Assembly (NCBI GenBank): GCA_900318835.1
Contig: ONLW01000027.1
Coordinates: 1 to 36,884 of the forward strand
Direction of reading: 5' to 3'
Length of the DNA stretch: 36,884 nt
Source of the DNA: an uncultured Bacteroidales bacterium
Lineage (GTDB): Bacteria; Bacteroidota; Bacteroidia; Bacteroidales; P3
In this document: positions 2 to 36,588 of the stretch, one piece after another
Layout: each line of letters opens with the position of its first letter
Position numbering within the stretch: position 1 is the stretch's first letter
Position numbers and translations under genes: made by a program
Notes under the pieces: generated by a model
What the model saw: the letters and a program-made list of their open reading frames with translations, nothing else
What the model was told of the DNA's origin: nothing
The model's database searches: none

Positions 2-103
2 GATCCCGCCGACCTGCCCGACGGTACCTATTTCTACCGCTTCTCGGCCCGCGGCTACAATGGCAACATTGAGCACAATGGAGCTGTCGAGGTGATTCAT
101 TGA
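2..103 (+). CDS. C-terminal end of a T9SS-type (gliding-motility CTD-like) secreted protein, partial
   Basis: Only the last 33 codons are present; the gene starts outside the window. The peptide contains LPDGTYFYRF, then ARGYNG and a short closing strand ending in VEVIH. The spacing of D-G-T-Y-x-Y, a K/R-rich beta turn and a terminal hydrophobic strand resembles the end of the gliding-motility-associated C-terminal domain, which directs outer-membrane export by the type IX secretion system. The complete example at 12972-15956 ends similarly (GAYVYLIRY, then GTVTLIR). A good terminator follows 26 bases after the stop. The family call rests on few residues and is tentative; the reading frame is secure because a terminator and a new promoter follow. 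Confidence 0.55.
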   Translation, partial: DPADLPDGTYFYRFSARGYNGNIEHNGAVEVIH

Positions 104-3433: not shown

Positions 3434-4671
3434 ATACCAACGATATACGCATCACCCTCCCAGCTTCCAAAAGCATGAGCAACCGATGGCTTATGATTAA
3501 CCATCTCATCGGTGGCCACTTCCGCATCAACAAACTCTCCACTTCGGGCGACACCCGCCTCCTGCGACAGCTGTTGACGCAGATTGAGGAAGGTGGCGGC
3601 TCGGGTGTCTACTATTGCAACAATGCCGGTTCCGTGGCCCGTTTCCTCATGCCGCTGCTCGCCATCACTCCGGGACACCACACCCTCACCGGTGACGAGC
3701 GTCTCTGCCAGCGCCCCATGGCGCCGCTCATCGAGGCTTTGCGTCAGATGGGACTCCGGGTCGACTGTACCGAAAAAGAGGGCTTTCTGCCCGTCCATAT
3801 ACAGGGAGGCATCCCCATACGCCGCACCGTGAGCGTCGACCCGCTACTCAGTAGCCAGTTTGTCAGTGCTTTGTTGCTTATTGCCCCCAAGATGCCCGAG
3901 GGCATTTCCCTCACCATGACCCAACGCCCCACCTCGCGCCCCTACATCGAGATGACCTGCGACGCCTTGCGCCAGGCCGGCATTGAGGTGCGCCGCTCCT
4001 CCAATGGCCGCACCTACTATGTGCAACACATTGAGCGTAAGCCTAAAGCCTCTGTCATTTCCATCGAGCGCGACTGGTCGTCGGCATCCTATTTCTATAC
4101 CATGGCCCTACTGAGGCCTGACTTGCGCATCCGCCTGCTGGGACTCCAACTCGACTCCTGTCAGGGTGACAGCGCCACCGACGCTTTTTTCCGGCTCCTT
4201 GGTGTGCAGAGCACCGAAGTGCGCTCGCCCTACCGCTCCGCAGCGCGTTCCATCACCCTACAAGGGCCTGAAACAAAGATTCTTAACCCGAAGGTGCAGT
4301 TCAACTGCCTCGATTGTCCCGACCTGGTGCCTACCTTCGCCGTGGCCGCTGCAGCCGCCGGTGTGCGTGCTACCCTCAAGGGGGTCAGTAACATAGCTCT
4401 TAAGGAGAGTGACCGTATGCAGGCCATCAGCACCGAACTCCAGCGCATGGGAGGCAAGGTCACCTGCTCGGACGAGGAGATGGTCATCCTGCCTTCTGAA
4501 CTCCATCCCACGGAGCCTGTGCGTACCTACAACGACCATCGAATTGCCATGGCTTTCGCGCCGCTCATGTTGCGTTTCCCCGACCTCAAAATCGAGAATC
4601 CCGAGGTGGTTGACAAGTCGTTCCCCGAATTCTGGCAGCAGTTCGATTTGGTCTTGAATAATAAGCAATGA
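3430..4671 (+). CDS. aroA: 3-phosphoshikimate 1-carboxyvinyltransferase (EPSP synthase)
   Basis: Sixth step of the shikimate pathway: transfers the enolpyruvyl group of PEP to shikimate-3-phosphate. Visible signatures are the N-terminal ASKSMSNR (K14 region), NAGSVARFL, the GDERLCQRP loop, a conserved Asp in DLVPTFAVA, LKESDRM and NDHRIAMA near the C-terminus. At 413 residues it is close to the usual size, with a compact N-terminus that begins almost directly at the first strand. The ATG overlaps the stop of the activator gene by four bases (ATGA), which suggests translational coupling. Confidence 0.96.
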   Translation: MNTNDIRITLPASKSMSNRWLMINHLIGGHFRINKLSTSGDTRLLRQLLTQIEEGGGSGVYYCNNAGSVARFLMPLLAITPGHHTLTGDERLCQRPMAPLIEALRQMGLRVDCTEKEGFLPVHIQGGIPIRRTVSVDPLLSSQFVSALLLIAPKMPEGISLTMTQRPTSRPYIEMTCDALRQAGIEVRRSSNGRTYYVQHIERKPKASVISIERDWSSASYFYTMALLRPDLRIRLLGLQLDSCQGDSATDAFFRLLGVQSTEVRSPYRSAARSITLQGPETKILNPKVQFNCLDCPDLVPTFAVAAAAAGVRATLKGVSNIALKESDRMQAISTELQRMGGKVTCSDEEMVILPSELHPTEPVRTYNDHRIAMAFAPLMLRFPDLKIENPEVVDKSFPEFWQQFDLVLNNKQ

Positions 4672-5495
4672 AAAAGCTCCTGATAATCACTGGGCCCACG
4701 GCTTCGGGCAAGACAGCCGAGGCTATCCGCCTGGCCCGTGAATTAGGGGCTGAAATCCTTTCCTGCGACTCACGCCAGTTCTATAGTGAGATGCGCATTG
4801 GCGTGGCGCGTCCTTCCGATGAGGAACTGGCCGCTGCCAAGCACCATTTCATTGCCTGCCGCTCGGTATCGAATCCTTATAATATATTTGATTATGAGCG
4901 TGATGCAATGAAGTTGCTGGATGAACTCTTTCAGCATGGCGACATGGCCATCGCCGTAGGTGGCAGTGGCCTCTATGTTGATGCTTTGCGACAGGGTGTC
5001 ACCTCTATGCCGGACCCTACGCCCGAACTTCGTGCCCGTCTGCAGGAGATGCCTATCGAGGAGAAACGCTCGCAGCTTCAGATGCTTGATCCTGAATATT
5101 ACGCCCGTGTCGACCTCCGCAATCCCGTGCGTCTCCAGCGTGCCCTTGAGGTGTATTATATGACGGGACGTCCTTACTCTCAGGTGATTGTAGAAAGAAA
5201 GCCTGCCGAGCGCCCTTTTGAGATCGAAGTGCGTGTCCTCCAAATTCCTAACTCCGAACTCCGAACCAACATTGACCTCCGTGTTGACCGGATGATTGAG
5301 GAGGGCCTCCTTGAGGAGGTTCAGTCGCTACTTCCTTATCGGGATATTTCCACCCTCCGCACTGTCGGCTACCGAGAATTGTTCCCCGTCCTCGACGGCA
5401 CAAAAAAACTCGCCGATGCGGTGTCGGAAATCAAGCTAAATACTTGGCACTATGCACGTAAGCAACTAACTTGGTGCCGCCGTTACAAATTTTGA
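4668..5495 (+). CDS. miaA: tRNA dimethylallyltransferase MiaA
   Basis: Adds a dimethylallyl group to A37 of tRNAs reading UNN codons. The P-loop GPTASGKT is at residues 9-16, followed by the substrate motif SCDSRQFY (D34) and GGSGLYVDA. The C-terminal ARKQLTWCRRY corresponds to the conserved R-Q-x-T-W-x-R segment. At 275 residues it is shorter than the roughly 300-residue norm, ending a few residues after that segment. It overlaps aroA by four bases (ATGA) and is the last gene of the operon; a bidirectional terminator lies about 275 bases downstream. Confidence 0.96.
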   Translation: MKKLLIITGPTASGKTAEAIRLARELGAEILSCDSRQFYSEMRIGVARPSDEELAAAKHHFIACRSVSNPYNIFDYERDAMKLLDELFQHGDMAIAVGGSGLYVDALRQGVTSMPDPTPELRARLQEMPIEEKRSQLQMLDPEYYARVDLRNPVRLQRALEVYYMTGRPYSQVIVERKPAERPFEIEVRVLQIPNSELRTNIDLRVDRMIEEGLLEEVQSLLPYRDISTLRTVGYRELFPVLDGTKKLADAVSEIKLNTWHYARKQLTWCRRYKF

Positions 5496-5537: not shown

Positions 5538-5649
5538 TTGATACTAAGCACCAACTCCCTATCAACTCCCACCCATCTCCCAACCAACTCCTACCACGGT
5601 AGGAGTTGATAGGTTGATGGTAGGAGGTAGATAGGGAGTAAATACTTTG
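5538..5649 (+). repeat. 112-bp intergenic palindromic element, copy 1 (forward)
   Basis: The element begins TTGATACTAA, runs through four 11-bp units of the type AACTCCCTATC, reaches the core ACTCCTACCACGGTAGGAGT (5587-5606; stem 10 bp with flanking pairs, loop CACG), and ends in a G-rich arm and AAATACTTT. Copies 2-4 lie at 16139-16250, 25272-25383 and 35640-35751. This copy sits between convergent miaA and hbd. A 6-bp hairpin (GTGCTT/AAGCAC) overlaps its left end. In the rest of this spacer, 5650-5766 shows nothing recognisable. Confidence 0.85.
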
Positions 5650-5818: not shown

Positions 5819-6655
5819 TCAATATTTATAGAAACCTTCGCCGGTTTTGCGGCCGAGTAGGCCGGCACGGACCATCTTGCGGAGCAGGGGGTGGGGACGA
5901 TACTTGGGATCGCCAAACTCTTTGTAAAGCACCTCCATGATGGCGAGGTTCACGTCGTTACCGATGAGGTCGGCCAGGGCCAGGGGACCCATGGGGTGGT
6001 TGGCACCGAGCATCATGCACTTGTCGATGTCCTCGGCGGAAGCGATACCGTCGGCCAGGATACCAACAGCCTCGTTGATCATCGGGATAAGGATGCGGTT
6101 GACCACGAAACCGGGGGCTTCCTTCACCTCGACAGGCTGTTTGCCGATGCTGGTGGCGAGGTCGATGACGCACTTGCAGACCTCGTCGCTGGTCAGCTGG
6201 CCACGGATGACCTCAACGAGGGCCATGCGGTCGGCGGGGTTGAAGAAGTGCATGCCGATGAACTGGGCCGGACGCTTGGTACAGGCGGCAATTTCGGTGA
6301 TGCTCAGCGAGCTGCTGTTGGTGGCGAAAATGGTCTCAGGCTTGCAGATACCATCGAGCTCGGTGAAGACGTCCTTCTTCAGCTGCATCTCCTCGACGGC
6401 AGCCTCGATGACGAGGTCGGCATCGGCGAAGGTGGCGTAGTCGGTGGTGGTGGCGATGTTGGCCATGATGGCGTCGACGGCCTCCTGGGTCATCTTGCCT
6501 TTCTCAACGAGTTTGCCGTAACCTTTGGCAATGGAAGCCATGGCTTTGTCGAGGCTAGCCTGGGTGCGGCTCTTCATGACGACGGGCATCTTCACGGCGA
6601 AGGCTTTCACAATGCCTTTAGCCATGGTGCCGGTTCCAATAACACAGATTTTCAT
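5819..6655 (-). CDS. hbd: 3-hydroxybutyryl-CoA dehydrogenase
   Basis: Interconverts acetoacetyl-CoA and 3-hydroxybutyryl-CoA with NAD(P)H. The 278-residue protein has the N-terminal dinucleotide fold GTGTMAKG (the usual third Gly is Ala12), VIEAAVEE, the catalytic GMHFFNPA (H136) with E148 in ALVEVI, and PGFVVNRI (N186). The C-terminal dimerisation domain ends in [11 protein letters not shown]. This is the stand-alone, single-domain form found in butyrate producers, not a FadB-type fusion. It lies 144 bases downstream of crt, the next enzyme of the route. No thiolase or butyryl-CoA dehydrogenase is in the window. Confidence 0.95.
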
Positions 6656-12971: not shown

Positions 12972-15956
12972 CTATCTAATCAGTGTTACTGTGCCTTTCA
13001 GTACTCTGGTTTCACCGGGTTCAAACTCGTTGGTGTAGCGGATGAGGTATACATAGGCACCTTGTGTGCAGGGTTTGCCGTTCATGTCTTTGCCGTCCCA
13101 TTTACAGTCGGCGCCTTCGCAGTGGAAGACCATTTCTCCACGGCGATTGTAAATGAACATTTCTTGATATAGGGTCTTTTCGCTCACCGATCCGAAGAGG
13201 TTGTTGCCTGCAGGGTTGTCAGGGGTGAAGGCATTGGGAACCCAGAAGTATTCCTTGTTCAGCGGGATGTAGATATTGGTGGTGTCCACACATCCGAAAC
13301 GGCTGCTCTCGATGAGTGTGATGTCGGCGCCGTCCATCTCCACGGGAATGATGTAGTAGGCTATCTCGCTAGTCTGGTCGGGACCGCTGGGGAATTTCCA
13401 AACGCGACTGTCGCCGTTGATGGAGAGGTCGGTCAGCACCGCGTTCAGGTTATCGATGGTGAAATACCTGATGTCGGATTGCAGCTTGGCCGTCAACGGA
13501 TAGATGGTTAGGTCGAGGTGGATGATAGAGTCGCAGTTGTAGCGGTTCTTGAGGATAATAGTGTCGGTGTTGTTGTAGGGGGTACTTTCGGTATAGGTTT
13601 TGCCGTTGAGCCAAGTGACGGGTTTGCAGTCCTCGATGGGGTCGGGGATGTGGTAGACTTCATTGACAGTAAGGTCGAGACGTGTGATGCTGTCGCATTG
13701 GGCTTGCGACTGCAGGCGCACAAATGTTATGGTGGGATCGGTGTTTGTCTGGTAGGTCTCTCCGTTGGTCGACCAGATGTATTCCTCGCCTTTGCAGATG
13801 ACGGCTTTGGTGGTGGTGTCGAAGAGGGGGAAGATACGAATCATCATAGTGTCGAAGCTATGGCAACCGCTCTCATAGTCGGCGGTGACCTGTAGGATGA
13901 GGGTGTCGACTTTGTTGGCTTTCAGACCTCTATTGGGTAGAAGGTTGGAATAGAGAACCAGCGAGCGGGTGTTTGCCGTGTCGCCCACACGAATGATGTC
14001 TTCCTTCTTGTACATTGCCGGTTCGAGTTCGATGGTGTCATTGCCCTGAAAGCGGTAGAGGGGCACTAGGCGATAGTTGTCAATCTTCAGGTAATTGTTT
14101 TGCAGTACGGGTTCGCCGTGGCCTACCAGGGTGTCGAGGGAGATGGTGTCGCCACCGGAGACGCGGAAGAGTGTCCACTCTTCGTAGGTGATGGACTGCA
14201 GCTTGTTCATGTCCACTCGCATGCGCGCCGTGTCGCCGATGCAGATGTCGAGTTTCGACGGCTGGTTATCTGTTGCGGGTGCTTTGTGCAGGTTCAGGTA
14301 ATCCAAAGTGTCCACACCAACAAATATGGTGTCGGATAGCTCATACAAATCTCGATTGGCATTATAGAATTTGAGGAAGAAAACATATCTTGTGGGAACT
14401 TTGGGACTCACGTGGGCTTTGGTGAGGAACTTGCAAGGCCAGTCGTCATTATTTTCATGCATAGGCTCCATGTAGCCCGCTTCATCATATTGCGCATCCC
14501 ATTCCATTTCAGAGTTTCTCAGTGTGTCGTTTACCATACGTGTGGCAAGGTTGTACCGGACGCATACGGTGTCGAGGATGAATGAGGTGCAAGTGCTGTC
14601 AACAATGAGGTTCCAAGTGGTGTCGACGGTGAAGTTCCAAGTGGTGTCGACGATGAAATTCCAAGAGGTGTCGATGCGGTTAATGGTGGTGTGAGTGTCA
14701 TCGGTCCAGATGGTGTCGATAGAGATGGTAGTCAGTGTGGTATCAATATGGTTGATGGTGGTTCTGGTGGTGTCAATGGTGTTGACGGTCTGAGTGGTGT
14801 CGTAGCGGTAGGCGGTGCAGATGGTATCCACTCTGGTTTCTCGGCAGCCGAGGGTGTCGTAAGTTTCACGAATGCGGTACCAGCCGTAGAGTGTTGAGGT
14901 GCTGCCGGCAGGGGTGAAGCGGAATGCCTTGTTGGAGATGTTGGATGTGGTGAGATTGTAGCCTGAGGGAGCAAAAGAACTGGGCTTACCGGTGATATCA
15001 GGGTGACCGTTGGTTGCCTGAGGGTTGGAATTGGCCTGCTGGGCTGTGCCCGTGGCGTTCTGGATGCCGATGAGGCCGCTGCCGCTGTTCCACGACGAGC
15101 ACACCTGGCGTTGATTCACATGCACCTCAATGATGTTCGAACCTTCGTAGCAGACAATCTGGTAGGTGCAGCGGAGAGAGGTGCAGCTATACTGCGGCAC
15201 GTCGTTCCAAGAGCAGATAATCTTGCGGCACGGCGGCTCGTCCTGAACGCCGTAGTAGATACCCCAGTTGGGGTCGCCTGTCGTGCCATGGGTGGAGGGG
15301 CTAGGATAAGTGTCCTCATAAACGCCGTAGATGGCGTCGCGCATATAGTTCAGGCTGCTTGGTGCGTTGGGGGTTCCGTCGGGCCACGGAAGAGGCGCCG
15401 AATACCCCCATGGACAACTTGGCCCTGTAGATGTTGGATTATTGGTTACGGGCACGGGTCCGAAGGCTACCAGACCATTGGCTCCCAGCACGAATTTGTT
15501 TTTACGGATGCCGAAGAAATAGAATGGGTAGGGGATGTTAGTCTCCATATTCGAGAAGTTGTCATCTGTGCTGATAGGCATACGGGTACCAGCATGGAAT
15601 GTTGGGTCTGCGGGATCGTAGGGGATTTCGTCGACATAGTAGGTGCCGTTGAATCGCTGGGCTGGGATGTTGGGGGTGCAAGAAAGGATTATCTCGCGGT
15701 TCCGGCAGTCCACCACGGTGTCCCACCCCTGCAGGCGGTAGCGCCGCTGAGTGGTGTGGTCTCCCGCCTTCTCCCAATGATGGTCACCTTTTTGCTTGAT
15801 TATCACCTCGGGACACGACGATGGTGTGTTTGGCCACCTATATTCGTCGCATTCTCCGCCATACCAGATGGATTGCGGTGTCGGGTCGGACCCCACTTGT
15901 CCAAACATTGTTCCACTAGCCAAAACCGCCAGCGCAATTATTGTTAATCTCTTCAT
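12972..15956 (-). CDS. Large secreted T9SS cargo protein with gliding-type C-terminal domain
   Basis: The 994-residue protein has a signal peptide, MKRLTIIALAVLASGTMFGQ. An N-terminal region rich in Cys, Trp and Pro (about 20-360) is followed by a stretch of short D-T repeats (about 375-465), then repeats of the C-x-W-x-G ... CDSI-x-x-L-D-L-T type (CDSITRLDLTV, CDSIIHLDLTI). The last 90 residues are the gliding-motility C-terminal domain: WVPNAFTPD, FIYNRRGEMVF, WDGKDMNGK, QGAYVYLIRY and GTVTLIR. It is probably exported by T9SS and retained at the surface as an adhesin-like protein; the ligand is unknown. An in-frame ATG at 15974 would add MSNIRI ahead of the signal peptide. It is the first gene of the operon with asd, gldH-like and uvrC. 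Confidence 0.9.
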   Translation of the reverse strand: MKRLTIIALAVLASGTMFGQVGSDPTPQSIWYGGECDEYRWPNTPSSCPEVIIKQKGDHHWEKAGDHTTQRRYRLQGWDTVVDCRNREIILSCTPNIPAQRFNGTYYVDEIPYDPADPTFHAGTRMPISTDDNFSNMETNIPYPFYFFGIRKNKFVLGANGLVAFGPVPVTNNPTSTGPSCPWGYSAPLPWPDGTPNAPSSLNYMRDAIYGVYEDTYPSPSTHGTTGDPNWGIYYGVQDEPPCRKIICSWNDVPQYSCTSLRCTYQIVCYEGSNIIEVHVNQRQVCSSWNSGSGLIGIQNATGTAQQANSNPQATNGHPDITGKPSSFAPSGYNLTTSNISNKAFRFTPAGSTSTLYGWYRIRETYDTLGCRETRVDTICTAYRYDTTQTVNTIDTTRTTINHIDTTLTTISIDTIWTDDTHTTINRIDTSWNFIVDTTWNFTVDTTWNLIVDSTCTSFILDTVCVRYNLATRMVNDTLRNSEMEWDAQYDEAGYMEPMHENNDDWPCKFLTKAHVSPKVPTRYVFFLKFYNANRDLYELSDTIFVGVDTLDYLNLHKAPATDNQPSKLDICIGDTARMRVDMNKLQSITYEEWTLFRVSGGDTISLDTLVGHGEPVLQNNYLKIDNYRLVPLYRFQGNDTIELEPAMYKKEDIIRVGDTANTRSLVLYSNLLPNRGLKANKVDTLILQVTADYESGCHSFDTMMIRIFPLFDTTTKAVICKGEEYIWSTNGETYQTNTDPTITFVRLQSQAQCDSITRLDLTVNEVYHIPDPIEDCKPVTWLNGKTYTESTPYNNTDTIILKNRYNCDSIIHLDLTIYPLTAKLQSDIRYFTIDNLNAVLTDLSINGDSRVWKFPSGPDQTSEIAYYIIPVEMDGADITLIESSRFGCVDTTNIYIPLNKEYFWVPNAFTPDNPAGNNLFGSVSEKTLYQEMFIYNRRGEMVFHCEGADCKWDGKDMNGKPCTQGAYVYLIRYTNEFEPGETRVLKGTVTLIR
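14583..14678 (-). repeat. 24-bp tandem repeat (8-residue repeats) in the T9SS cargo gene
   Basis: Three near-identical 24-base units (14607-14630, 14631-14654, 14655-14678) share TTCCAAG-GGTGTCGA; a diverged fourth unit is at 14583-14606. They encode copies of an 8-residue strand such as DTTWNFTV, DTTWNLIV and DTSWNFIV. The unit is a multiple of three, so copy-number change would alter length without breaking the frame. Looser D-T repeats continue to about 14830. Confidence 0.8.
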
Positions 15957-15998
15957 TATTCTAATGTTAGACATAATCTTGTCTTGTTATTTAAGTTG

Positions 15999-16138: not shown

Positions 16139-16250
16139 AAAAGATACCAATAGCCTACCATCGCCCTATCATCGCCCTATCATCTCCTACCGTGGTAGGT
16201 GTTGGTAGGGAGTTGGGTGGGAGTTGATAGGGAGATGGTGTTAAGAATCA
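16139..16250 (-). repeat. 112-bp intergenic palindromic element, copy 2 (reverse)
   Basis: Reverse orientation relative to copy 1: it ends TTAAGAATCA on the plus strand. The core is CCTACCGTGGTAGG (around 16186-16199), with 11-bp units such as GTAGGGAGTTG on the right arm and two CGCCCTATCAT-type units on the left. A separate imperfect hairpin, CCCTCCC-TGCA-GGGTGGG (16116-16133), abuts its left edge. It lies between the divergent T9SS cargo operon and topA, about 190 bases before the topA ATG. The rest of this 487-base spacer (15957-16443) holds the promoter and phased motifs listed separately, and no gene. Confidence 0.85.
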
Positions 16251-16443
16251 GGCTTTTGCAAATACCGTTTTTGAGGTGTGTTGTCGGAATTTTTTCAATT
16301 TTTGTTCGATTGTTATAATGTTCTGTAATATAGTATATTGCGTTAGATTTAGGGGGCTGGAGGCGATTTTCTCGCTTGCGCACGTACAATAAATAATATA
16401 TATTTACGTTATGGATGGCAGAAAAATAAAAAACATACATAAT

Positions 16444-18768
16444 ATGAAGAATTTAGTAATAGTTGAGTCGCCTGCCAAGGCGAAGACCATCGAGAAGTTT
16501 CTCGGCAAGGATTACACGGTGAAGTCGAGCTATGGCCACATCCGTGACCTGGCGAAGAAGGAGATGAGCATCGATGTGGAGGCGGAGTACGAGCCGCAGT
16601 ACCAGATCAGCGACGACAAGCGTTCGCTGGTGAGCGAGTTGCAAAAAGCTGTGAAGAGTGCCGACAAGGTGTGGCTCGCATCCGATGAGGACCGAGAGGG
16701 AGAGGCCATTGCCTGGCATTTGCAGGAGACGCTGAAGCTCAATCCCGAGACGACGCAGCGTATCGTTTTCAACGAGATTACGAAGACCGCCATTCTCCAC
16801 GCCATCGAGAATCCGCGCGGCATCGACATGAACCTCGTCGACGCCCAGCAGGCGCGCCGTGTGCTCGACCGTCTGGTGGGTTATGAAATCAGCCCCATTC
16901 TCTGGAGCAAAATCAAACCTGCCCTGAGCGCCGGCCGTGTGCAGAGTGTCGCTGTGCGTCTCATTGTGGAGCGCGAGAACGAGATTAAGGCTTTCGAGAG
17001 CAAACCCTACTTCCGCGTGACGGCCCAGTTCCATCCGGTGGACAGCCAGAAGATGCTCAGTGCTGAGTTGGGTCGCCACTTCGATACCGAGGCCGAGGCC
17101 GAGCAATTCCTTCAGAGTCTGATGAACGCCAGTTTCAAGGTGAGCAAGATAGAGACCAAGCCTGCCCACCGCACGCCGGCACCGCCCTTCACCACCTCGA
17201 CCCTCCAGCAGGAGGCCAGCCGCAAGCTGGGCTTCAGCGTGGCACGCACCATGCAGGTGGCACAGCAGCTGTATGAAAGTGGATACATTACCTATATGCG
17301 TACCGACAGCGTGAACCTCAGTGACCTGGCTCTCAGCATGGCCAAGCAGGAGATCACCGCCCAGTACGGTGCCGAGTATGTGAAGACCCGTCGCTACCAG
17401 ACCAAGACCAAAGGTGCCCAGGAGGCCCACGAGGCTATCCGTCCCACCGACATGACGGCCCAGAGCATCAACGCCGAGAGCGCCCAGCGTCGCCTCTACG
17501 AACTCATCTGGAAGCGCACCGTCGCCAGCCAGATGGCCGACGCCGAGATCGAGAAAACCGAGATGGAAATCTCCACCGGCGGCAAATATAATTTCCAATG
17601 CAGCGGTGAACAGGTGAAGTTCGACGGCTTCCTGAAGGTTTACCTTGAGAGTACCGACGACGAGGAACCCGAGAGCGAGGGTGGCAAGATGCTGCCGCGC
17701 CTGCCGGAAGGCACGCTGCTGACGATGGAGCTCTGCGAGGCTACCGAGCATTGGACGCAGCATCCTCCACGCTACACCGAGGCCAGCCTCGTCAAGAAAC
17801 TCGAGGACCTGGGCATCGGCCGTCCGTCGACCTACGCTCCCACCATCAGCACCATCCTCAAGCGCGAATACATCATGAAGGAAGACCGCGAGGGCGAGAG
17901 CCGCAACAGTGTGCAGTTGGCCCTCAAGGGCGGTGCTATCAAACGTGCCGAGAAGGTCGAGAAGGGCTATGCCGAGAAGGGCAAATTGTTCCCCACCGAC
18001 ATCGGATGTGTGGTGAACGATTTCCTGATGGACCACTTCTCCAACATCATGGACTACAACTTCACCGCCACGGTGGAGAAGGACTTCGACGAGATTGCCG
18101 CAGGCAAGAAGGAATGGCGCAAGGTCATCGACCGCTTCTACGTGCCTTTCCACAAGAATATTCGCCAAACGCAGCAGACCTCGCAGCGCACCACCGGCAG
18201 CCGCTTGCTGGGCACCGACCCCAAGAGTGGCAAGAATGTCTATGCCAAGATTGGCCGCTACGGCACCCTGGTGCAGATTGGCGAGACCAATACCGACGAG
18301 AAGCCTCTGTTCGCCAGCATGAAGAAGGGCCAAAGCATCGAGACCATCACGCTCGACGAGGCTCTGGCACTCTTTGCGCTGCCGCGCACGGTGGGACAGT
18401 ATGAGGAGAAGGATGTCACGGTGAGCATCGGCAAGTTCGGCCCGTATGTGCGCCACAACAACAAGTTCTATTCTTTGGGCAAGAACGACGACCCGTATGA
18501 TGTGACGTTGGAGCGTGCCATCGAGATTATCGACACGAAGCGCAAGGCCGAGGAGAAAAAGGAAGAGCAGAGGAAGAATTTCCCGCACGAGATTGGTGTG
18601 CAGGATGGCGAGACGGTGGTGAGCAACATTGGCCGCTTCGGACCCTACCTGACCTACAAGGGCGAGAACTTCCGCCTGGCCAAGGACATCGACCCGCTGA
18701 AGCTCACCCTTGCTGAGGCTATGGAGATTGTCAACAATGCTGGAAAAAAGAAAAGTAAGAAGAAGTGA
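16444..18768 (+). CDS. topA: DNA topoisomerase I
   Basis: Type IA topoisomerase that relaxes negative supercoils. The 774-residue protein starts MKNLVIVESPAKAKTIEKFL with a TOPRIM domain (E8, DEDREGE at 81-87), then the clamp and the active-site Tyr in ITYMRTDS (Y284). The C-terminus has no Cys4 zinc ribbons. Instead it has repeats of the GRFGPYV type (GRYGTLVQ, GKFGPYVRH, GRFGPYLTY) and a lysine-rich tail (GKKKSKKK), as is usual in Bacteroidetes. The frame opens 33 bases earlier at an ATG giving MDGRKIKNIHN, but homologous proteins begin at the ATG used here. Confidence 0.97.
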   Translation: MKNLVIVESPAKAKTIEKFLGKDYTVKSSYGHIRDLAKKEMSIDVEAEYEPQYQISDDKRSLVSELQKAVKSADKVWLASDEDREGEAIAWHLQETLKLNPETTQRIVFNEITKTAILHAIENPRGIDMNLVDAQQARRVLDRLVGYEISPILWSKIKPALSAGRVQSVAVRLIVERENEIKAFESKPYFRVTAQFHPVDSQKMLSAELGRHFDTEAEAEQFLQSLMNASFKVSKIETKPAHRTPAPPFTTSTLQQEASRKLGFSVARTMQVAQQLYESGYITYMRTDSVNLSDLALSMAKQEITAQYGAEYVKTRRYQTKTKGAQEAHEAIRPTDMTAQSINAESAQRRLYELIWKRTVASQMADAEIEKTEMEISTGGKYNFQCSGEQVKFDGFLKVYLESTDDEEPESEGGKMLPRLPEGTLLTMELCEATEHWTQHPPRYTEASLVKKLEDLGIGRPSTYAPTISTILKREYIMKEDREGESRNSVQLALKGGAIKRAEKVEKGYAEKGKLFPTDIGCVVNDFLMDHFSNIMDYNFTATVEKDFDEIAAGKKEWRKVIDRFYVPFHKNIRQTQQTSQRTTGSRLLGTDPKSGKNVYAKIGRYGTLVQIGETNTDEKPLFASMKKGQSIETITLDEALALFALPRTVGQYEEKDVTVSIGKFGPYVRHNNKFYSLGKNDDPYDVTLERAIEIIDTKRKAEEKKEEQRKNFPHEIGVQDGETVVSNIGRFGPYLTYKGENFRLAKDIDPLKLTLAEAMEIVNNAGKKKSKKK

Positions 18769-23874: not shown

Positions 23875-24227
23875 TTTTGGTGGCCGAAGAGGGTGCATCG
23901 CTGTCGAGCGGCAACCTGCGGCTGTACGCGCTTCCCTACGGCTGCATAGATTTATACAACTACGACCCGCTGAATCGGCGTTGCGCCGTGGGTATCATGG
24001 TGGCCAACGAGTACCGCCGCCAAGGCTATGCCCTCGCCATGTTGCTAGCGTTGGAGACGCAGCAGGCTGCGTCTCTACACACGCTGTACGCTGACATCGC
24101 CGCCTCCAACACCGCCAGCATCAACCTCTTCCGCAAAGCCGGATACGAAGAGTGCGGCCGCTTCAAAGAATGGCTCCTCGTCAACGATAAATACATCGAC
24201 ACCATTAGAATGCAAAAAATGATATGA
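23856..24227 (+). CDS. Short GNAT-family acetyltransferase, N-terminally reduced
   Basis: The 123-residue protein keeps the acetyl-CoA-binding motif A (GIMVANEYRRQGYALAM, R-R-x-G-x-A) and the following helix/strand (ASNTASINLFRKAGYEECG), as in RimJ/SpeG-like acyltransferases. It begins at about the third strand of the fold (GCIDLYNYDP), so roughly 40-50 residues that would help bind the acceptor are missing. The upstream DNA is recG, so there is no room for a longer N-terminus in this frame. An in-frame REP-like hairpin lies in the middle. It may be active with a reduced fold or may be decaying. Its stop overlaps mltG by four bases. Confidence 0.78.
   Translation: MGQDKLVLVAEEGASLSSGNLRLYALPYGCIDLYNYDPLNRRCAVGIMVANEYRRQGYALAMLLALETQQAASLHTLYADIAASNTASINLFRKAGYEECGRFKEWLLVNDKYIDTIRMQKMI
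24054..24075. repeat. REP-like hairpin inside the GNAT gene
   Basis: A perfect 9-bp inverted repeat GAGACGCAG/CTGCGTCTC with loop CAGG, followed by TACA. Palindromes with GCGTCTCTAC arms are recurrent extragenic repeats in many bacteria. Here it is read through as ETQQAASL. Confidence 0.6.
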
Positions 24228-25204
24228 AACGCAAAACAAAAATCATCCTGATCATAATCCTCACACTGTTCTTGCTGGCCACCTTGGGGCTCTATTCCCT
24301 CCTGAATTCTAGGACCGCCAACAGCGAACCCCGCCGTCTCTTCCTCCCCGAGGGCACCACCTACCAGGCCCTCTGCGACAGCCTCGACGCCTCGCGCTCC
24401 TTCCGCTTCTTCGCCGAAGCCCTTGGCCTCGACGAGCGCGTGCGGCCTGGCTCGTATGTAGTTGAACCACACATGAGCAACCTTGCCCTTGTAAGAAAGT
24501 TCCGCAACGGCCAGCAGGACCCCATCCGTCTCACCATCGGCAAGTTCCGTACCCCGCAACAGCTCAACGAATACCTCAATACAAAGCTGATGCACAATGA
24601 TTTCGATATCCCGCTCGACAGTTTCTACATCATCCTGCCCGACACCTATGAGTTCTACTGGACCGTCACCCCCGCCCAGTTCATGCAGCGCATGGAAGAC
24701 GAATACGACCAGTTTTGGACCACGGAAGTCGGTCCTCAGGGCGAACTGCGGTGCGACCTTCTTGAACTCTCCGACTACGGCAATGCGCGACTGGAGACAA
24801 TAATTTTGGCCTCGATAGTCGATGAAGAAACCAACAACAACGCAGAGAAGCCGCTGATAGCTAGCGTGTACATCAACCGTTTGGAGCGCGGCATGCCCCT
24901 CCAGGCCGACCCCACAGTGAAGTATGCCGTGGGCGACTTCACCCTAAAGCGTATTCTCAACAAACACCTTGCCGTGGAGAGTCCCTTCAACACCTACCTC
25001 CACACAGGCCTGCCACCGGCCCCCATCTGCCTGCCCTCGAAAGCCAGCATCGACGCCGTCCTCAACGCAAAAGAGACCAACTACCTCTACTTCTGCGCCT
25101 CCTCCGAGATGGACGGCACTCACCGCTTCGCCGCCACCCTCGCCGAGCACCAGCGCAACGCCGCCGCCTTCCACAAAGCGCTCAACAGACGCGGGATCAA
25201 ATAG
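24224..25204 (+). CDS. mltG: Endolytic murein transglycosylase MltG (YceG-like)
   Basis: Cleaves nascent peptidoglycan strands at the inner membrane to release or terminate glycan chains. The 326-residue protein has one N-terminal membrane helix (about 7-27), a LysM-like region (LFLPEGTTYQALCDSL) and the YceG domain with ILASIVDEET (201-202 are Glu; the second is the likely catalytic one), LQADPTVKYA and SPFNTYLHTGLPPAPI. It is coupled to the GNAT gene by an ATGA overlap. A hairpin and a 112-bp element follow before nadE. Confidence 0.95.
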   Translation: MKRKTKIILIIILTLFLLATLGLYSLLNSRTANSEPRRLFLPEGTTYQALCDSLDASRSFRFFAEALGLDERVRPGSYVVEPHMSNLALVRKFRNGQQDPIRLTIGKFRTPQQLNEYLNTKLMHNDFDIPLDSFYIILPDTYEFYWTVTPAQFMQRMEDEYDQFWTTEVGPQGELRCDLLELSDYGNARLETIILASIVDEETNNNAEKPLIASVYINRLERGMPLQADPTVKYAVGDFTLKRILNKHLAVESPFNTYLHTGLPPAPICLPSKASIDAVLNAKETNYLYFCASSEMDGTHRFAATLAEHQRNAAAFHKALNRRGIK

Positions 25205-25271: not shown

Positions 25272-25383
25272 TTGATACTAAATACTATCTCCCTATTAAC
25301 TCCTACCCAACTCCTAACCAAGTCCTACCATGGTAGGAGATGATAGAGTGATGGTAGGTGGATGGCAGGGAGTCAAAATCTTT
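25272..25383 (+). repeat. 112-bp intergenic palindromic element, copy 3 (forward)
   Basis: Begins TTGATACTAA like copy 1, has units of the AACTCCTACCC type, the core TCCTACCATGGTAGGA (25323-25338) and ends near AAAATCTTT. It lies between the co-directional mltG and nadE genes. Pairing is limited mostly to the core (6 bp plus loop CATG), so this copy is more decayed than copy 4. No clear TAnnTTTG box is seen between it and nadE. Confidence 0.85.
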
Positions 25384-25453: not shown

Positions 25454-27010
25454 ATGAACATACATATTGTACAGCACGATGTGCGGACTAACCGACCCGA
25501 AGAGAATCTGGAATGGATTATGGCTGAGCTTGAATCGCCACAGTCAAAGGAAGCGTTGCTGACCGTCTTCCCGGCATGCACTCTTTGTGGTGCACCGCTC
25601 TATGCCTCGGCAGGTTACACCGACCTGCAGAAGCGCGCGCAGGCAGCTTTGCAGCAGTTGGTGTCGATGAGCGAGCACAGGGCTTTCCTTGTTGGTTTGC
25701 CCTTGCAGATTCAGGACAAGGGATTGTGTAACGCCATTGTTTTTGTACAGAACTGTGCCATTCGCGCCATCATCACGAAAAAGTATCTGGCTCCTGACGA
25801 GCAACGTTGCTTTGTGCGTGGTGAGGGGGTGCAAGTGGTTCAGTTCCATGACGAAAAGATTGCCATCGGATTCTATGAGGACCTCAAAGAACTGACCCGT
25901 GGCCATGTGGAGCAGCCCGACCTGATTGTCTGCTGCGGCTGCAATGTTTTTGACTATCAGAAACCTTACCGCACGCGTTATCGCATGTCGAAAATCGTAG
26001 AAGGCCTGAATGCGGGTCTGGTGTATGTGAACCGCACTGGCGGTGAGGGATGCTTCCTCTATGCCGGCGGTTCGATGGCGATGAATGCTGCTGGTGGCGT
26101 GCTGTGCCAACTGCCTTATTTTGAGGACGCATGCCACACCGTTGACATGCAGCAGATTGAGGAGGTCGAAGACGAGAAACCCGAAGCCGTCGAGTTGGTT
26201 TACAAGGGGTTGGTGTGTGGATTGAGAGACTATTTCCGCAAAAACGGCATCCAGCGTGCCGTGTTGGGCCTGAGCGGCGGCATTGATTCGGCTTTGGTGG
26301 CCACCTTGGCCGTCGACGCCATCGGTGCTGAGAATGTACACGGACTGCTGATGCCCAGCCAATATTCGACCGACCATTCCGTGAAGGATGCTGAAGACCT
26401 GGCACATAACCTTGGCATGAGCTACGATATTGTGCCTATCCGTCCGATGTTCGACCAGTTCCGCGAGAGCCTGAAGCCCGTTTTCGGCAACCGCGCAGAG
26501 GATGTGACGGAGGAAAACCTTCAGGCACGTATCCGCGGCACGCTAGTGATGGCTTATGCCAACAAGTTTGGCGCCATGGCCCTCAACACCACCAACCGCT
26601 CGGAGGCTGCCATGGGCTACGGTACCCTCTATGGCGACAGCTGTGGCGGTCTAGGCCTTATCGGAGACCTCTACAAGACAGAGGTTTACCAATTGAGTGA
26701 GTATGTTAACCGCGACGGCATCCGCATCCCGCAGAACACCATTGACAAGGCTCCGAGTGCTGAGTTGCGTCCAGGTCAGAAAGACAGCGACTCGCTGCCC
26801 GACTATGACACTTTGGATGCCGTGTTGAACCTCTATCTCGATGAGTCTCTCTGCGAGGAGGAAATTGTGGCTGAGGGCTATGACCGCGAGATGGTGCAGA
26901 TGGTTATCCGCAAGGTGGCGCAGAACGAGTGGAAGCGCCTCCAGTTCGCCCCTCAGCTGAAGGTGAGCCCCGTGAGCTTCGGCTACGACCGTCGGTGGCC
27001 GATTTCTTAG
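25454..27010 (+). CDS. nadE: NAD+ synthetase with a degenerate glutaminase (nitrilase) domain
   Basis: Amidates nicotinic acid adenine dinucleotide to NAD+. Residues 1-235 are a nitrilase-fold glutaminase domain and 250-518 the synthetase domain, with the ATP-pyrophosphatase loop SGGIDSA (274-280), TTNRSEAAMGY, TLYGDSCGG and KTEVYQLSEY. In the glutaminase part the Lys is kept (KKYL, 109-110), but the Glu of FPE is Ala (FPACTL, A41) and the Cys of CED is Tyr (FYEDL, Y141). Without these residues glutamine should not be hydrolysed, which predicts use of free ammonia. The synthetase half looks intact. Confidence 0.93.
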   Translation: MNIHIVQHDVRTNRPEENLEWIMAELESPQSKEALLTVFPACTLCGAPLYASAGYTDLQKRAQAALQQLVSMSEHRAFLVGLPLQIQDKGLCNAIVFVQNCAIRAIITKKYLAPDEQRCFVRGEGVQVVQFHDEKIAIGFYEDLKELTRGHVEQPDLIVCCGCNVFDYQKPYRTRYRMSKIVEGLNAGLVYVNRTGGEGCFLYAGGSMAMNAAGGVLCQLPYFEDACHTVDMQQIEEVEDEKPEAVELVYKGLVCGLRDYFRKNGIQRAVLGLSGGIDSALVATLAVDAIGAENVHGLLMPSQYSTDHSVKDAEDLAHNLGMSYDIVPIRPMFDQFRESLKPVFGNRAEDVTEENLQARIRGTLVMAYANKFGAMALNTTNRSEAAMGYGTLYGDSCGGLGLIGDLYKTEVYQLSEYVNRDGIRIPQNTIDKAPSAELRPGQKDSDSLPDYDTLDAVLNLYLDESLCEEEIVAEGYDREMVQMVIRKVAQNEWKRLQFAPQLKVSPVSFGYDRRWPIS

Positions 27011-33325: not shown

Positions 33326-35566
33326 TTATAATTTTCTCAAGATGAAATCAGTCATCAGCTGGTAGAGATTCAAACGGGTGTTGCCCGTGTTGTCGTAGAT
33401 GCTGTGGTTCTTGTTGGGGTAGATGCGGAACTCGAACTGCTTGCCTGCATTTTCCAACTTCTCCACCATCTCGGCCGAGTTCTGGAAGTGGACATTATCG
33501 TCGCCCGTACCGTGAATCAGCAGGTAGTTGCCTTGCAGGCGCTCAGCGAAATTCAGCGGCGAGTTGTCGTCGTAGCCCTTGGCGTTGTCCTGCGGCAGGG
33601 CGAGGAAGCGCTCGGTGTAGATGTTGTCGTAGTAGCGCCAGTTCATCACGGGAGCCACGGCGATGGCGGCCTTGAAGACGTCGTTGCCCTTGAGGATGGA
33701 AAGCGTCGAGAGATAGCCTCCGAAGCTCCAGCCCCAGATGCCGATGCGGTCTTTGTCGACCCAGTTCTGCTGACCCAGCCAGCGGGCGGCCTCGATGGCG
33801 TCCTCGCACTCCATGCGGCCCAGGTCGCGATAGGTCTGCTTCTTGAAGTCTGCACCACGTCCGCCGGTACCACGTCCGTCGAAGCACATTACCACGTAAC
33901 CCTTCTCGGACAGCATGTGGTACCAGAAGTAGTCGTTGTAGCCGTAGCTGTTCGTCACTTGCTGGTTGCCGGGACCGCCGTAAACATAGATAAGCACAGG
34001 GTAGTTTGTTTGCTTGGCAGGGTCGAAGCCTTTCGGTGTAATCAGGTAGTAGTTTAGCAAAGTGCCGCGCGAGGTGCCAAAAGCTCCGAAGGTCTTACGT
34101 CCGGTGCCATAGTCGGCCATCTTCTGCTGCAATTCGGCGTTGTCCTGCAGAGTCTTTACCAGTTTGCCTTTGGCATCGTGAAGGGTGTAGACGGGGGCGT
34201 GGTTGGCGTCGCTCCAGGTGCAGATGTAGTATTTGCAGCCGTTGCTGAAGGTGGCATTGTAGGTGCCGAACCTTTTATGATTGAGGCAGGTCTTTTTCAG
34301 GTTCTTGCCACTGAAATCGACCATGTAGAGGCTCTTATTGATGGCGAGGTCCTCGCGACTGGTGTAGTATATGCGGCTGTTCTTGACGTCAATGCCGGGG
34401 ACGTCACAGACTTCCCAGTTGCCGCTGGTCAGCTGCTTCACCAGACTGCCGTTCATATCGTAGAGGTAGATGTGGCGGTATCCGTCCTTCTCGCTGGTGA
34501 TGAGCATCTGTTCCTTGGCCTTCTTTCCTTTACCAACGGTGATGAACTGCCACGTGTCGGGAACGTCGACATAGGTGTCGCAATGCTCGGCGTAGAGATT
34601 GGTGACGTCGTAGGCAAAGTCTTTGCTGTAGTTGGTGAAGTGGTAAGCAAGGATTTGCATGTTGTTCTGCAGGCGGTTCATAACCATCACGGCTAGCACG
34701 TCGGGGTCCTCGGTCCACTGGAAACGGGGAATGTATTCCCAGTCGGGCTTGCTGGTTCCAAGGTATCTAGCGGTATGGTTGAGTCCGAGGTTATAGACCC
34801 ACATGGTCACTTCGCTGTTGTCCTCGCCGGCCTTGGGGTACTTGTAGCGGTAGTCCTCGGGATAAAGGGCTCCCCACATCTGCATATTATACTCCTTCAC
34901 CTTGCTCTCGTCGAAGCGCATATAGGCTATCTTCTTCGAGTCGGGGCTCCACTGGAAGCCCTGCGTGATGGCAAACTCCTCCTCGTAGACCCAGTCGGTG
35001 GTGCCGTTGATGATCTCGTTCACCTTGCCGTCGGTGGTGATGGCGTGCTCTTCGAGCGAGGCGAGATCCATCCAGTAGAGGTTGTTGTCACGTACGAAGG
35101 CCACCTTGGTGCCGTCGGGGCTAAGGGTAGTCAGGCGCTGCTTGCCGGTCCTGCTAATCAGGGTAAAAGTCTTTTCTTGAACATCATAGATGTAGTAGTC
35201 GCTCACACCGCTGTGGCGGTAGATGGGCTCGAAGCCGCTGCTGAGGAGTATCTTCTGCTCGTCGGCGCTGAACTCGTAGCTCTCCATCGGGGGCAGGGGC
35301 TTGGCCTTCTTGCTCATCTGCGGAGTGTTGAAGAGGCACACGTCGGCCACCTTCTCGCCAGTGGCGTAGCTGTATTTGGCAATGCCTGTGCGGCTCATAG
35401 TGCAGTAGTGCTCGCCGTCGGCCATCGAGCGGATGGCTCCGATGCCTTTCGCACGGAACGTCCCCTTGGTCCAGATGTCCTCCAGCGTGATATTTTTCGT
35501 CTGGGCACTGGTCATACCAATGCCTGCCAATAGCGCAAATGCCATAAATACAAAGAGTTTCTTCAT
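33326..35566 (-). CDS. Dipeptidyl peptidase IV (S9 family)
   Basis: Serine exopeptidase that releases Xaa-Pro/Ala dipeptides. The 746-residue protein has a signal peptide (MKKLFVFMAFALLAGIGMTSAQ), an N-terminal beta-propeller of the DPPIV_N type with the substrate-anchoring DWVYEEEF, and a C-terminal alpha/beta hydrolase with the triad Ser in GWSFGGY (about 614), Asp in HGTGDDNVHF (about 689) and His in NKNHSIYD (about 721). Probably periplasmic or surface-located and used for dietary or host peptide uptake. The open frame extends ten codons upstream, but the signal peptide defines the start. First gene of the operon. Confidence 0.95.
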   Translation of the reverse strand: MKKLFVFMAFALLAGIGMTSAQTKNITLEDIWTKGTFRAKGIGAIRSMADGEHYCTMSRTGIAKYSYATGEKVADVCLFNTPQMSKKAKPLPPMESYEFSADEQKILLSSGFEPIYRHSGVSDYYIYDVQEKTFTLISRTGKQRLTTLSPDGTKVAFVRDNNLYWMDLASLEEHAITTDGKVNEIINGTTDWVYEEEFAITQGFQWSPDSKKIAYMRFDESKVKEYNMQMWGALYPEDYRYKYPKAGEDNSEVTMWVYNLGLNHTARYLGTSKPDWEYIPRFQWTEDPDVLAVMVMNRLQNNMQILAYHFTNYSKDFAYDVTNLYAEHCDTYVDVPDTWQFITVGKGKKAKEQMLITSEKDGYRHIYLYDMNGSLVKQLTSGNWEVCDVPGIDVKNSRIYYTSREDLAINKSLYMVDFSGKNLKKTCLNHKRFGTYNATFSNGCKYYICTWSDANHAPVYTLHDAKGKLVKTLQDNAELQQKMADYGTGRKTFGAFGTSRGTLLNYYLITPKGFDPAKQTNYPVLIYVYGGPGNQQVTNSYGYNDYFWYHMLSEKGYVVMCFDGRGTGGRGADFKKQTYRDLGRMECEDAIEAARWLGQQNWVDKDRIGIWGWSFGGYLSTLSILKGNDVFKAAIAVAPVMNWRYYDNIYTERFLALPQDNAKGYDDNSPLNFAERLQGNYLLIHGTGDDNVHFQNSAEMVEKLENAGKQFEFRIYPNKNHSIYDNTGNTRLNLYQLMTDFILRKL

Positions 35567-35601
35567 GTTATGTAGTTCGATTTTATAAATATTCAAAAAT
35601 G

Positions 35602-35639: not shown

Positions 35640-35751
35640 TGTAAACAGCTACTGCCTCCCATATCCCTATCATCCCCCTACCAACTCCTACTACGGTAGG
35701 AGTTGGTAGGGAGTTGGGTGGGAGTTGGTAAGGATATGGTATTAAGAATCA
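35640..35751 (-). repeat. 112-bp intergenic palindromic element, copy 4 (reverse, best stem)
   Basis: Reverse orientation; it ends TTAAGAATCA on the plus strand. The core ACTCCTACTACGGTAGGAGT extends to a perfect 16-bp stem (35676-35691 with 35696-35711) closed by TACG. The right arm is four 11-bp units (GGTAGGAGTTG, GTAGGGAGTTG, GGTGGGAGTTG, GTAAGGATATG). It lies between divergent DPP and tcdA. The remainder of this 302-base spacer has a 10-bp tandem pair, GTGTTTGTTC/T (35761-35780), and the TTTAAC motifs. Confidence 0.88.
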
Positions 35752-35810
35752 GTTATTTATGTGTTTGTTCGTGTTTGTTTTTGCTGTAAATCAGTTAGTT
35801 AAGTGGTGTG

Positions 35811-35837
35811 TTTAACTATATTTAACAACCTTTTGAC
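35811..35837. promoter_or_regulatory. TTTAAC motifs phased at 10 bp upstream of tcdA
   Basis: TTTAACTATA, TTTAACAACC and the weaker TTTTGACAAT follow one another at exact 10-base spacing, 32-58 bases ahead of the tcdA ATG. The pattern resembles that at 16064-16090. No TAnnTTTG box is evident for tcdA. Confidence 0.4.
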
Positions 35838-35868
35838 AATATTTTCGGTAGGGTGGCGTTATAAAATC

Positions 35869-36588
35869 ATGACTGAAAGAAAGGATATTTTTTCCCGCAC
35901 TGGGATGCTGGTGGGTGAGGAGGCGATGGAGCGGTTGTGGCGGACGCGCGTCATCATCTTCGGTGTCGGTGGTGTGGGTAGCTGGTGTGCCGAGGCTCTG
36001 GTACGCAGCGGGATAGGACACCTGACGCTGGTGGATTCAGATTGTGTGGATGGCTTCAATATCAACCGGCAGTTGCCGGCTCTCACCTCCACCATCGGTC
36101 GCCCCAAGGTTGATGTGCTCCGCGAACGTTTTCTGGATATCCATTCCGAGGCTGAAATCGTTGCTCGCCAGGAGCGCTTCACGGCCGATACGGCTGCGAG
36201 TTTTGAGATGGAAAAATTTGATTACGTGATAGATGCCATCGATAGCATCGCCGATAAGTTGGAGCTAATTTTGCTTGCGACAGCAAAAACTGAAGCAATC
36301 AAGCAATCAAGCAATCAAGCAATCTTTTACTCGTCGATGGGTGCCGCGCGCAAGATGGACCCCCTGCAGGTACGGGTGACGGAGTTCTGGAAGGTCGACG
36401 GCTGTCCGCTGGCGGCGACGCTCCGCAAGCGTATGCGTAAGCAGCAGCGCTTCCCAGAACGAAAATTCAAATGTGTTTGGTCGCCAGAAAGAAACGATGA
36501 TGCGGAACCCAAAGGTACTATGATGCCCGTCACGGCTACCTTCGGCCTAACGCTGGCCAGTCTGGTAATAAAAGATGTAACATTATGA
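35869..36588 (+). CDS. tcdA: tRNA threonylcarbamoyladenosine dehydratase (TcdA/CsdL, ThiF/E1-like)
   Basis: Cyclises t6A37 in ANN-decoding tRNAs using ATP. The 239-residue protein has the E1-like nucleotide fold GVGGVGSWCAEALVRSGIG (32-50), VDSDCVDGFNINRQ (55-68), IGRPKVDVLRER and SSMGAARKMDP. A stretch of about eleven residues (142-152, KTEAIKQSSNQ) between ELILLA and IFYSSMG is encoded by an 8-bp tandem repeat and is not expected from the family. The frame opens 66 bases upstream, but that part is intergenic; the ATG at MTERKDIFSRTGML matches known N-termini. Confidence 0.92.
   Translation: MTERKDIFSRTGMLVGEEAMERLWRTRVIIFGVGGVGSWCAEALVRSGIGHLTLVDSDCVDGFNINRQLPALTSTIGRPKVDVLRERFLDIHSEAEIVARQERFTADTAASFEMEKFDYVIDAIDSIADKLELILLATAKTEAIKQSSNQAIFYSSMGAARKMDPLQVRVTEFWKVDGCPLAATLRKRMRKQQRFPERKFKCVWSPERNDDAEPKGTMMPVTATFGLTLASLVIKDVTL
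36269..36324 (+). repeat. Inverted repeat plus 4 x 8-bp tandem repeat inside tcdA
   Basis: TTTTGCT-TGCGAC-AGCAAAA (36269-36288) is followed four bases later by four perfect copies of AAGCAATC (36293-36324). The unit length is not a multiple of three, so gain or loss of one or two units would shift the tcdA frame. Confidence 0.92.

Follow-up and report, generated by a model that had tools for sequence, protein, structure and literature searches.

A stretch of 36,884 nucleotides (contig ONLW01000027.1, positions 1 to 36,884, forward strand) from an uncultured Bacteroidales bacterium of the gut, probably of the rumen (assembly GCA_900318835.1, GTDB lineage P3), referred to as the window, carries four copies, E1 to E4, of a dispersed element that consists of 11-bp units arrayed in inverted orientation about a 24-bp dyad (11-mer, 2 bp, inverted 11-mer). 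In the sequence sampled, members of this family occupy spacers between genes, stay more than 4 kb away from each other and often keep their positions between related species. We interpret them tentatively, with a confidence somewhat short of even, as helically phased DNA-level arrays of sites for one putative sequence-specific protein, which perhaps act as domain organisers.

An 11-bp register about a central dyad

The four elements had been proposed in an earlier reading of the window from sequence alone (the sequence-only reading), and each was found where it had been placed, with a core (unstranded) in every copy: E1 at 5538..5649 on the plus strand (core CCTACC-AC-GGTAGG at 5590..5603, dyad centre at 5596/5597), E2 at 16139..16250 on the minus strand (CCTACC-GT-GGTAGG, 16186..16199), E3 at 25272..25383 on the plus strand (CCTACC-AT-GGTAGG, 25324..25337) and E4 at 35640..35751 on the minus strand (CCTACT-AC-GGTAGG, one mismatch, 35687..35700). 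The similarity among them exceeds that expected from composition: the 18-mer CTCCTACCNNGGTAGGNG, with up to three mismatches, has nine matches in the window, which comprise the four elements on either strand and a single stray match with three mismatches, against a mean of 0.67 and a maximum of 4 in 100 shuffles. The shared left end, TGAT[A/T]CT[A/T]A, hereafter the cap, lies exactly 58 bp from the centre in 4/4 elements, as TGATACTAA on the plus strand in E1 (5539..5547) and E3 (25273..25281), and as TGATTCTTA on the minus strand in E2 (16242..16250) and E4 (35743..35751), and its position, left of the centre in the first pair and right of it in the second, bears out two copies in each orientation. 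The proposed right end of the form AAA-T-CTTT can be made out clearly by eye in E1 and E3 and only weakly in the other two.

Further elements were collected from 457 kb of G000, the assembly that holds the window (2.34 Mb, 43 contigs), and from 984 kb of G009, one of the genomes of the same genus to which the other G-numbers refer. These samples gave 50 and 74 elements, 124 together, with scores of 35-118 against a top score of -24 in reversed control sequence, the model having been trained on the same elements that it counts. The centre-aligned consensus, taken from 38 seed copies with an exact core, reads (C-A-[A/T]-C-N-C-C-[C/T]-T-A-[C/T])n, then CAACTCCTACC-NN-GGTAGGAGTTG, then the inverted array. 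The inner dyad is its most conserved part, conservation drops outward, and the AT-rich ends remain in the 11-bp register, the cap TGATnCTnA being one such unit. This internal period, a feature that the sequence-only reading does not contain, is evident in the excess identity within the same arm, which amounts to 0.055 at lag 11 and 0.036 at lag 22 and to no more than 0.007 at the other lags from 8 to 24.

The cap follows the same step. Within 130 bp of a centre the strict pattern has 37 matches (4 in equal-sized control regions), of which 33 lie at exactly 58 bp (4), 69 bp (23) or 80 bp (6). A cap 40-110 bp from the centre is present in 36/124 elements, on the left in 18, on the right in 18 and on both sides in none; a looser pattern raises the capped elements to 39/124, and all 39 can be oriented correctly from their inner 92 bp alone (leave-one-out). 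The constant length attributed to the element thus holds among E1-E4 and fails elsewhere, since the cap shifts by 11-bp steps and 85/124 copies have none. Arrays change unit by unit, as in the orthologue of E1 in G009, where the cap is 69 bp from the centre, one unit further out than the 58 bp of the window.

A dispersed structured RNA, forming a hairpin in transcripts, had also been considered, and the elements do contain imperfect inverted repeats of up to 42 nt with 79% complementarity. When the 124 elements are compared, Watson-Crick covariation strongly exceeds what column composition predicts only within the inner dyad, at pairs 5 (z 6.7) and 10 (z 5.3), the two pairs of 45 with z >5. 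A weak excess at pairs 22 and 27 (z 3.1 each) would speak for a hairpin; the remaining pairs from 13 to 45 lie near or below expectation, down to z -3.6, with pairs 30, 32 and 43 at z -2.8 to -3.6. The outer arms accordingly show no strong pairing covariation, the summed pairing excess is no better in the true register (0.36) than in one slid by 3 (0.35), and no Rfam family matches the window at its gathering threshold. A structured RNA is rejected on covariation, and we regard it as extremely unlikely.

Dyad position 5 changes symmetrically among copies and species (T-A, G-C, C-G), which would be compatible with symmetric reading of the dyad or with conversion from one arm to the other, and the covariation and lag patterns appear as expected from direct-repeat DNA sites with a symmetric centre. 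Taken together, the exact 11-bp step, the conserved dyad, the outward decay and the lack of arm pairing suggest that a protein nucleates at the dyad and grows out over both arms: the 24-bp dyad would be the nucleation site of the putative protein, and the flanking units, about one per helical turn, would let it spread to either side in an ordered array that follows one face of the DNA.

Intrinsic curvature was computed as 30.5 degrees for the elements, 21.9 for shuffles and 24.5 for random 11-mer arrays, and of four arrays of other families three are curved and one is not; these values depend on the wedge parameters used and are given no weight.

Intergenic placement and mutual exclusion

Copies are abundant outside the window. 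G000 contains 149 sites that match the core CCTACCNNGGTAGG with no more than one mismatch, against 10 in the reversed control, or about one per 17 kb net of control, which excludes the possibility that the genome holds no further copies and confirms the dispersed intergenic family that the sequence-only reading had proposed. Not one element centre falls inside a called gene (0/50 in G000 and 0/74 in G009, genes being called with our own hexamer caller).

In the window, E1-E4 occupy the four largest spacers between called genes, as had been claimed; the flanking genes were identified by Pfam and their names assigned by us. The convergent spacer of E1 separates an IPP-transferase (miaA-type) gene (4668-5495, +) from a 3-hydroxyacyl-CoA dehydrogenase gene (5819-6655, -). 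E2 lies in a divergent spacer, with a gene that encodes a CHU_C type IX secretion signal domain (12972-15974, -) on one side and a DNA topoisomerase (topA-type) gene (16411-18768, +) on the other. The spacer of E3 is tandem and follows a YceG-like (mltG-type) gene (24224-25204, +), the next gene being an NAD synthase (nadE-type) gene (25454-27010, +). E4, again in a divergent spacer, is flanked by a dipeptidyl peptidase IV-type gene (33326-35596, -) on its left and a ThiF-family gene (35803-36588, +) on its right.

All spacer types are used, divergent ones most: 20/39 divergent spacers are occupied in the G000 sample, where the figures are 9/37 for convergent and 19/266 for tandem spacers, and 27/69 divergent spacers are occupied in that of G009. 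Centres lie mostly at least 100 bp from gene starts (median 224 bp, 5th percentile 102 bp), and no consistent side relative to genes was seen. The divergent preference and the distance from gene starts would suit operators of a global regulator, or transcription boundaries (terminators or promoters) at the ends of transcription units. The occupation of every spacer type with no consistent side argues against this explanation, as does the spacing described below, since operators need not stay more than 4.4 kb apart, and we consider it improbable.

In the sampled sequence, consecutive elements are spaced with a mean gap of 10.4 kb (coefficient of variation, CV, 0.42) in G000 and 12.9 kb (CV 0.52) in G009. 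No gap is shorter than 4.4 kb (0/31 in G000, minimum 4.5 kb, Poisson P 1.4e-6; 0/66 in G009, minimum 4.4 kb, P 1.4e-10), a mutual exclusion that the sequence-only reading had not foreseen. The two genomes share many sites and are not independent. The G009 sample is mostly contiguous; that of G000 was drawn from stretches with known matches and its density is biased upward, which works against detecting exclusion. Random picks among spacers of the same orientation class give a mean CV of 0.85-0.93 with 23-38% of gaps below 4 kb, where none was observed, and in each of six tests 0/1000 random sets were as regular as the real one. A model of pure 4.4-kb exclusion, in which the remainder of each gap is random, can be rejected no more than marginally (P 0.045 and 0.029), and most of the regularity is thus accounted for by exclusion. 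Exclusion extends to G117 (16 elements, minimum gap 6.6 kb, P 0.004) and G035 (9 elements, 19 kb, P 0.024), and the CV is unusual in G035 as well (P 0.032); exclusion in four genomes and regularity of the CV in three of the four is what would be looked for in a class of domain boundaries.

Adjacent capped pairs alternate in orientation in 18/22 cases (P 0.004). This alternation is a lead only, because G000 and G009 share sites and the count over all oriented pairs is 41 to 30 (P 0.24).

Retention, copying and other arrays in the genus

As far as was searched, the family appears to be confined to some species of one genus. Exact matches to TCCTACCNNGGTAGGA number 49 in G000, 72 in G009, 12 in G002, 13 in G035 and 2 each in G007, G014 and G015, and are absent from the other 54 of 61 genomes, the control giving one match overall. 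With two mismatches allowed, CTCCGACCNNGGTCGGAG has a match in 61/119 genomes of the genus, mostly at the level of their own control; counts of at least 10 and at least twice the control are reached in 10 genomes (G009 123, G069 67, G117 55, G000 52, G133 32, G002 25, G035 23, G088 23, G102 13, G007 12), those listed in G102 looking like a different repeat. A scan of named genomes returned at least 112 stretches; among the 80 listed, 46 are in Bacteroidales-type assemblies, such as RUG156, RUG11699, RUG11969, RUG153, UBA2939 and RGIG4993 (roe deer rumen), and the detector found an 11-bp array in none of the other 34, mainly from Actinobacteria. In G014, contig C29 (L060, 13.3 kb) holds two strong C-rich elements, yet the whole genome has only the two exact core matches, and the contig is possibly mis-binned.

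Positions are retained between species, within the limits of fragmentary assemblies. For ten of the 50 G000 elements the sequences on either side are syntenic in the sample of G009, and an element is present in 10/10; of the rest, 7 have both flanks, apart, 8 have one flank (5 with and 3 without a nearby element) and 25 have no match. Counted by genes, spacers of conserved adjacency that hold an element in G000 keep the family in 6/6 cases in G009, 6/10 in G117 and 2/5 in G035, and the family is found in 1/10, 0/9 and 0/4 of the other large adjacency-conserved spacers of these genomes, one of the nine in G117 holding an 11-bp array of another sequence. At the E4 site the element is kept in both G009 and G035. 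Two element-free sites that might have revealed a target-site duplication, the miaA spacers of G022 and G008 (75-80 bp), have diverged too far for alignment. The retention of sites and the mutual exclusion of copies point either to a function that the array performs where it lies or to a mobile ancestor with target immunity.

The elements might alternatively be neutral repeats, spaced by selection against recombination between nearby copies, which would also invert segments and homogenise neighbours. Consistent with this, the E2-E3 segment, from topA to mltG, is inverted in G009 with an element at each end, and adjacency is lost at 13/34 element spacers as compared with 16/91 other spacers of at least 60 bp (G009, G035 and G117, P 0.019). 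Chromosomally close elements are also more alike than distant ones (0.698 vs 0.656 in G000 and 0.714 vs 0.674 in G009, neither reached in 5000 permutations), a similarity that is regional and extends across some 5-6 elements. However, the excess of lost adjacency disappears against large spacers of at least 150 bp (13/34 vs 10/33, P 0.61; G009 alone 8/14 vs 3/13, P 0.12), so elements are rejected as synteny breakpoints and are not shown to cause rearrangement. Moreover, short repeats of about 70% identity recombine poorly, and the closest pairs occur in both relative orientations. We consider neutral repeats quite improbable, a little more so than operators.

Recent copying is evident from pairs that are almost identical yet differ in their flanks (97 bp at 99% identity in G035, 95 bp at 99% in G009), in tracts whose ends vary around the centre (such as -38..56, -15..81 and -43..29). 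Such pairs, lacking shared flanks, are what a miniature inverted-repeat transposable element (MITE) would produce, and the non-autonomous mobile element that the sequence-only reading had put forward as one of two possibilities gains part of its case from them and from the patchy distribution inside one genus. In this explanation the 11-bp arrays would be transposase sites, target immunity would block insertion within some 5 kb of a copy, as the exclusion over more than 4 kb fits, and present copies would be mostly old. Another part of the case fails on the anatomy: the cap is on one side only, and the whole element is an imperfect inverted repeat with differing ends, not one with terminal repeats. 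The variable tract ends and the 10/10 retention in the G009 sample also tell against a mobile element, and a plasmid or phage origin is rejected, no plasmid or phage match to E3 having been found. The Y1 transposase of repetitive extragenic palindromic (REP) sequences, known as RAYT (PF01797), is present in five of the nine carriers tested (G000 with 2 matches, G069 4, G002 3, G007 3 and G035 2), which speaks for a mobile element; it is found as well in genomes without the family, and has no match in the other four, G009, G117, G133 (78% complete) and G088 (83% complete), this being the one transposase family searched, DDE families not having been searched. With absences among carriers and presence among non-carriers, RAYT does not track the elements. 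A mobile element with immunity is possible, if doubtful; as the origin of the family it could be true together with an architectural array as the present role.

Capped elements are restricted to a subset of contigs (P 0.0002 and 0.003), including the parB-bearing contig of G009. On that contig (C6, near 45940 and 47385) the sole ParB_N match of G009 is about 1.4 kb from an element, and 8/11 of its elements are capped, the highest share among the sampled contigs, which may place the capped class near the origin. At the 3' end of miaA in five genomes (L289 in G002, L268 in G035, L286 in G069, L287 in G117 and L283 in G015), and by match coordinates in G128 too, an element begins right at the stop codon; a long right end, GATAATACTTCGGTGGGGTTAGTTAATACT, is common to four of the five and missing in G015, and the arrangement differs in G000 and G009.

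Arrays of 11-bp units of other sequence also occur. At sites orthologous to E2/E3 or E4 they stand out by eye in G007 and G015, and at the E4 site in G002, whose nadE-topA spacer has no array. This coincidence is only suggestive, because arrays are common in large spacers there (5/20 in G002, 2/3 in G015, 2/3 in G007) and the one adjacency-conserved element site of G007 is arrayless by the detector; in these small samples the single such site of G015 is occupied by an array with a different sequence, and there is none in G002. Inverted arrays with other units are present in G028, G088, G035 and G117 and twice in the G000 sample; by the detector, 984 kb of G009 contains no array outside the C-rich family. 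A general class of 11-bp inverted arrays with varied units is likely, though not yet proven.

The unrelated units include TGTTCTTCGAT, TTCTCATATAC, GTTAAACGAAC and CATAGACCTAC, most arrays being inverted about a centre, in other species as well as in the genome of the window. They lie at L046 near 13216, L045 near 3909, L047 near 3802 and 14462, L278 near 2509, L266 near 46, contig C26 of G035 near 218515 and 376656, and, in the G000 sample, L023 near 19175 and L040 near 8565. Long and mostly one-sided arrays of AGTCGGAGTTG-like units, as if recently expanded, are seen in G117 (L240 near 475, L257 near 10480). One element of G035 (L231 near 7064, that is C26 near 237064) has copies of AACTGAGCCCTGTAAGGGCGGTATGTTTTAGC on both sides, maybe a separate dispersed repeat family, and tandem repeats at lags 7, 14 and 21 (heptads) are also common in the samples of G002, G007, G035 and G117.

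Known repeat families and a possible architectural role

Plasmid centromeres such as parC, bound by ParR, are arrays of 11-bp direct repeats, in R1 two sets flanking a promoter. The elements resemble them in their two sets of 11-bp direct repeats, with a period close to one helical turn; unlike parC, the two sets are inverted about a dyad, there are well over a hundred arrays per genome, and no ribbon-helix-helix (RHH) protein of the RHH_1 type was found by PF01402.

Among dispersed repeats, REP sequences and bacterial interspersed mosaic elements (BIMEs) are short palindromic extragenic repeats, with more than 100 copies per genome reported (PMC2817692), and REPINs are REP doublets said to be distributed at random in extragenic space (PMC3116915). 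The elements are likewise short, palindromic, extragenic and of high copy number. They differ from REPINs, as far as these are described, in consisting of 11-bp units about one dyad instead of an inverted pair of REPs, and in excluding each other where the doublets are random. With a single central dyad, direct-repeat arms and no strong outer-arm covariation, and with the RAYT gene missing in 4/9 carriers yet present in others, including G000, a REPIN/RAYT system is disfavoured.

PINSR, from the Prevotella intermedia/nigrescens group, is the nearest system found in lineage and behaviour: according to the portion of its description at hand it is 188 bp long, has 177 and 184 copies in two strains with about three quarters of sites conserved, and shows some inversions between copies and no terminal inverted repeats (PMC4755523). 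The elements are, like it, a lineage-restricted dispersed Bacteroidales repeat, and are set apart by description, not by sequence, through its length and because that portion describes no palindromic 11-bp array. BrickBuilt, a MITE of Porphyromonas gingivalis, is, in the excerpt available, built on the 23-nt unit AGAYCATARTATCCTCTCRTRTG, with terminal repeats like those of insertion sequences and 19 copies (PMC4596501); it too is an intergenic Bacteroidales element with internal tandem repeats. Identity with it is rejected on the unit (23 nt against 11 bp of other sequence), and the excerpt describes no inverted array about a dyad. The family thus shares a dispersed intergenic nature with REP/BIME, MITEs, BrickBuilt and PINSR and lacks the traits that define REPIN-RAYT and BrickBuilt and the terminal repeats of a MITE. 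No description of a matching family was found in the open-licence literature, and one may exist elsewhere.

Several observations weigh against sites for an architectural protein. About 10 of the 119 genomes of the genus clearly carry the C-rich sequence family, and outside it the detector matches are few (nine at lag 11, five at lag 9, three at lag 10, none at lags 12 and 13). Candidates for the binding protein were not found: neither an expansion of ParB nor an RHH factor is seen among 19 genomes, ParB occurring once in 16/19, with or without elements, and RHH_1 in 0/19. The mean sampled gap varies by species (about 10 kb in G000, 13 kb in G009, 20 kb in G117 and 42 kb in G035), the spacing CV in G117 is not unusual (P 0.17), and gaps above 20 kb exist, which points to exclusion more than to a ruler. 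By the detector, 4/10 adjacency-conserved element sites in G117 and 3/5 in G035 have no array, an absence that would favour a mobile element, and the best match of an element is its immediate neighbour in only 7/43 and 13/74 cases. Given the density differences and these arrayless sites, a domain role would not be constant in the genus.

With these points taken into account, phased sites for a putative protein remain the explanation that we tentatively prefer. The arrays would delimit stretches of the chromosome of some 5-20 kb, or keep them apart, as boundaries of topological or nucleoid domains or as sites of segregation or condensation, and the copies would spread and become homogenised by recombination. 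In a bolder form, which we consider unlikely, the chromosome would be partitioned by more than 100 labile insulator arrays whose architecture and many of whose sites are conserved and whose unit sequence is replaceable between species or families, as in fast-evolving centromeres; the cognate protein would polymerise and set domains of about 10 kb, with alternately oriented capped arrays marking their ends.

Repeats scattered through bacterial genomes are commonly regarded as mobile debris that has landed at random. The elements described here keep at least 4.4 kb apart in the sampled sequence and are retained at orthologous sites. A family in such exact register would provide a sequence-defined handle on how bacteria set topological domains of about 10 kb, and on how a repeat can spread without landing beside itself, and array-carrying relatives in public assemblies make both questions testable.
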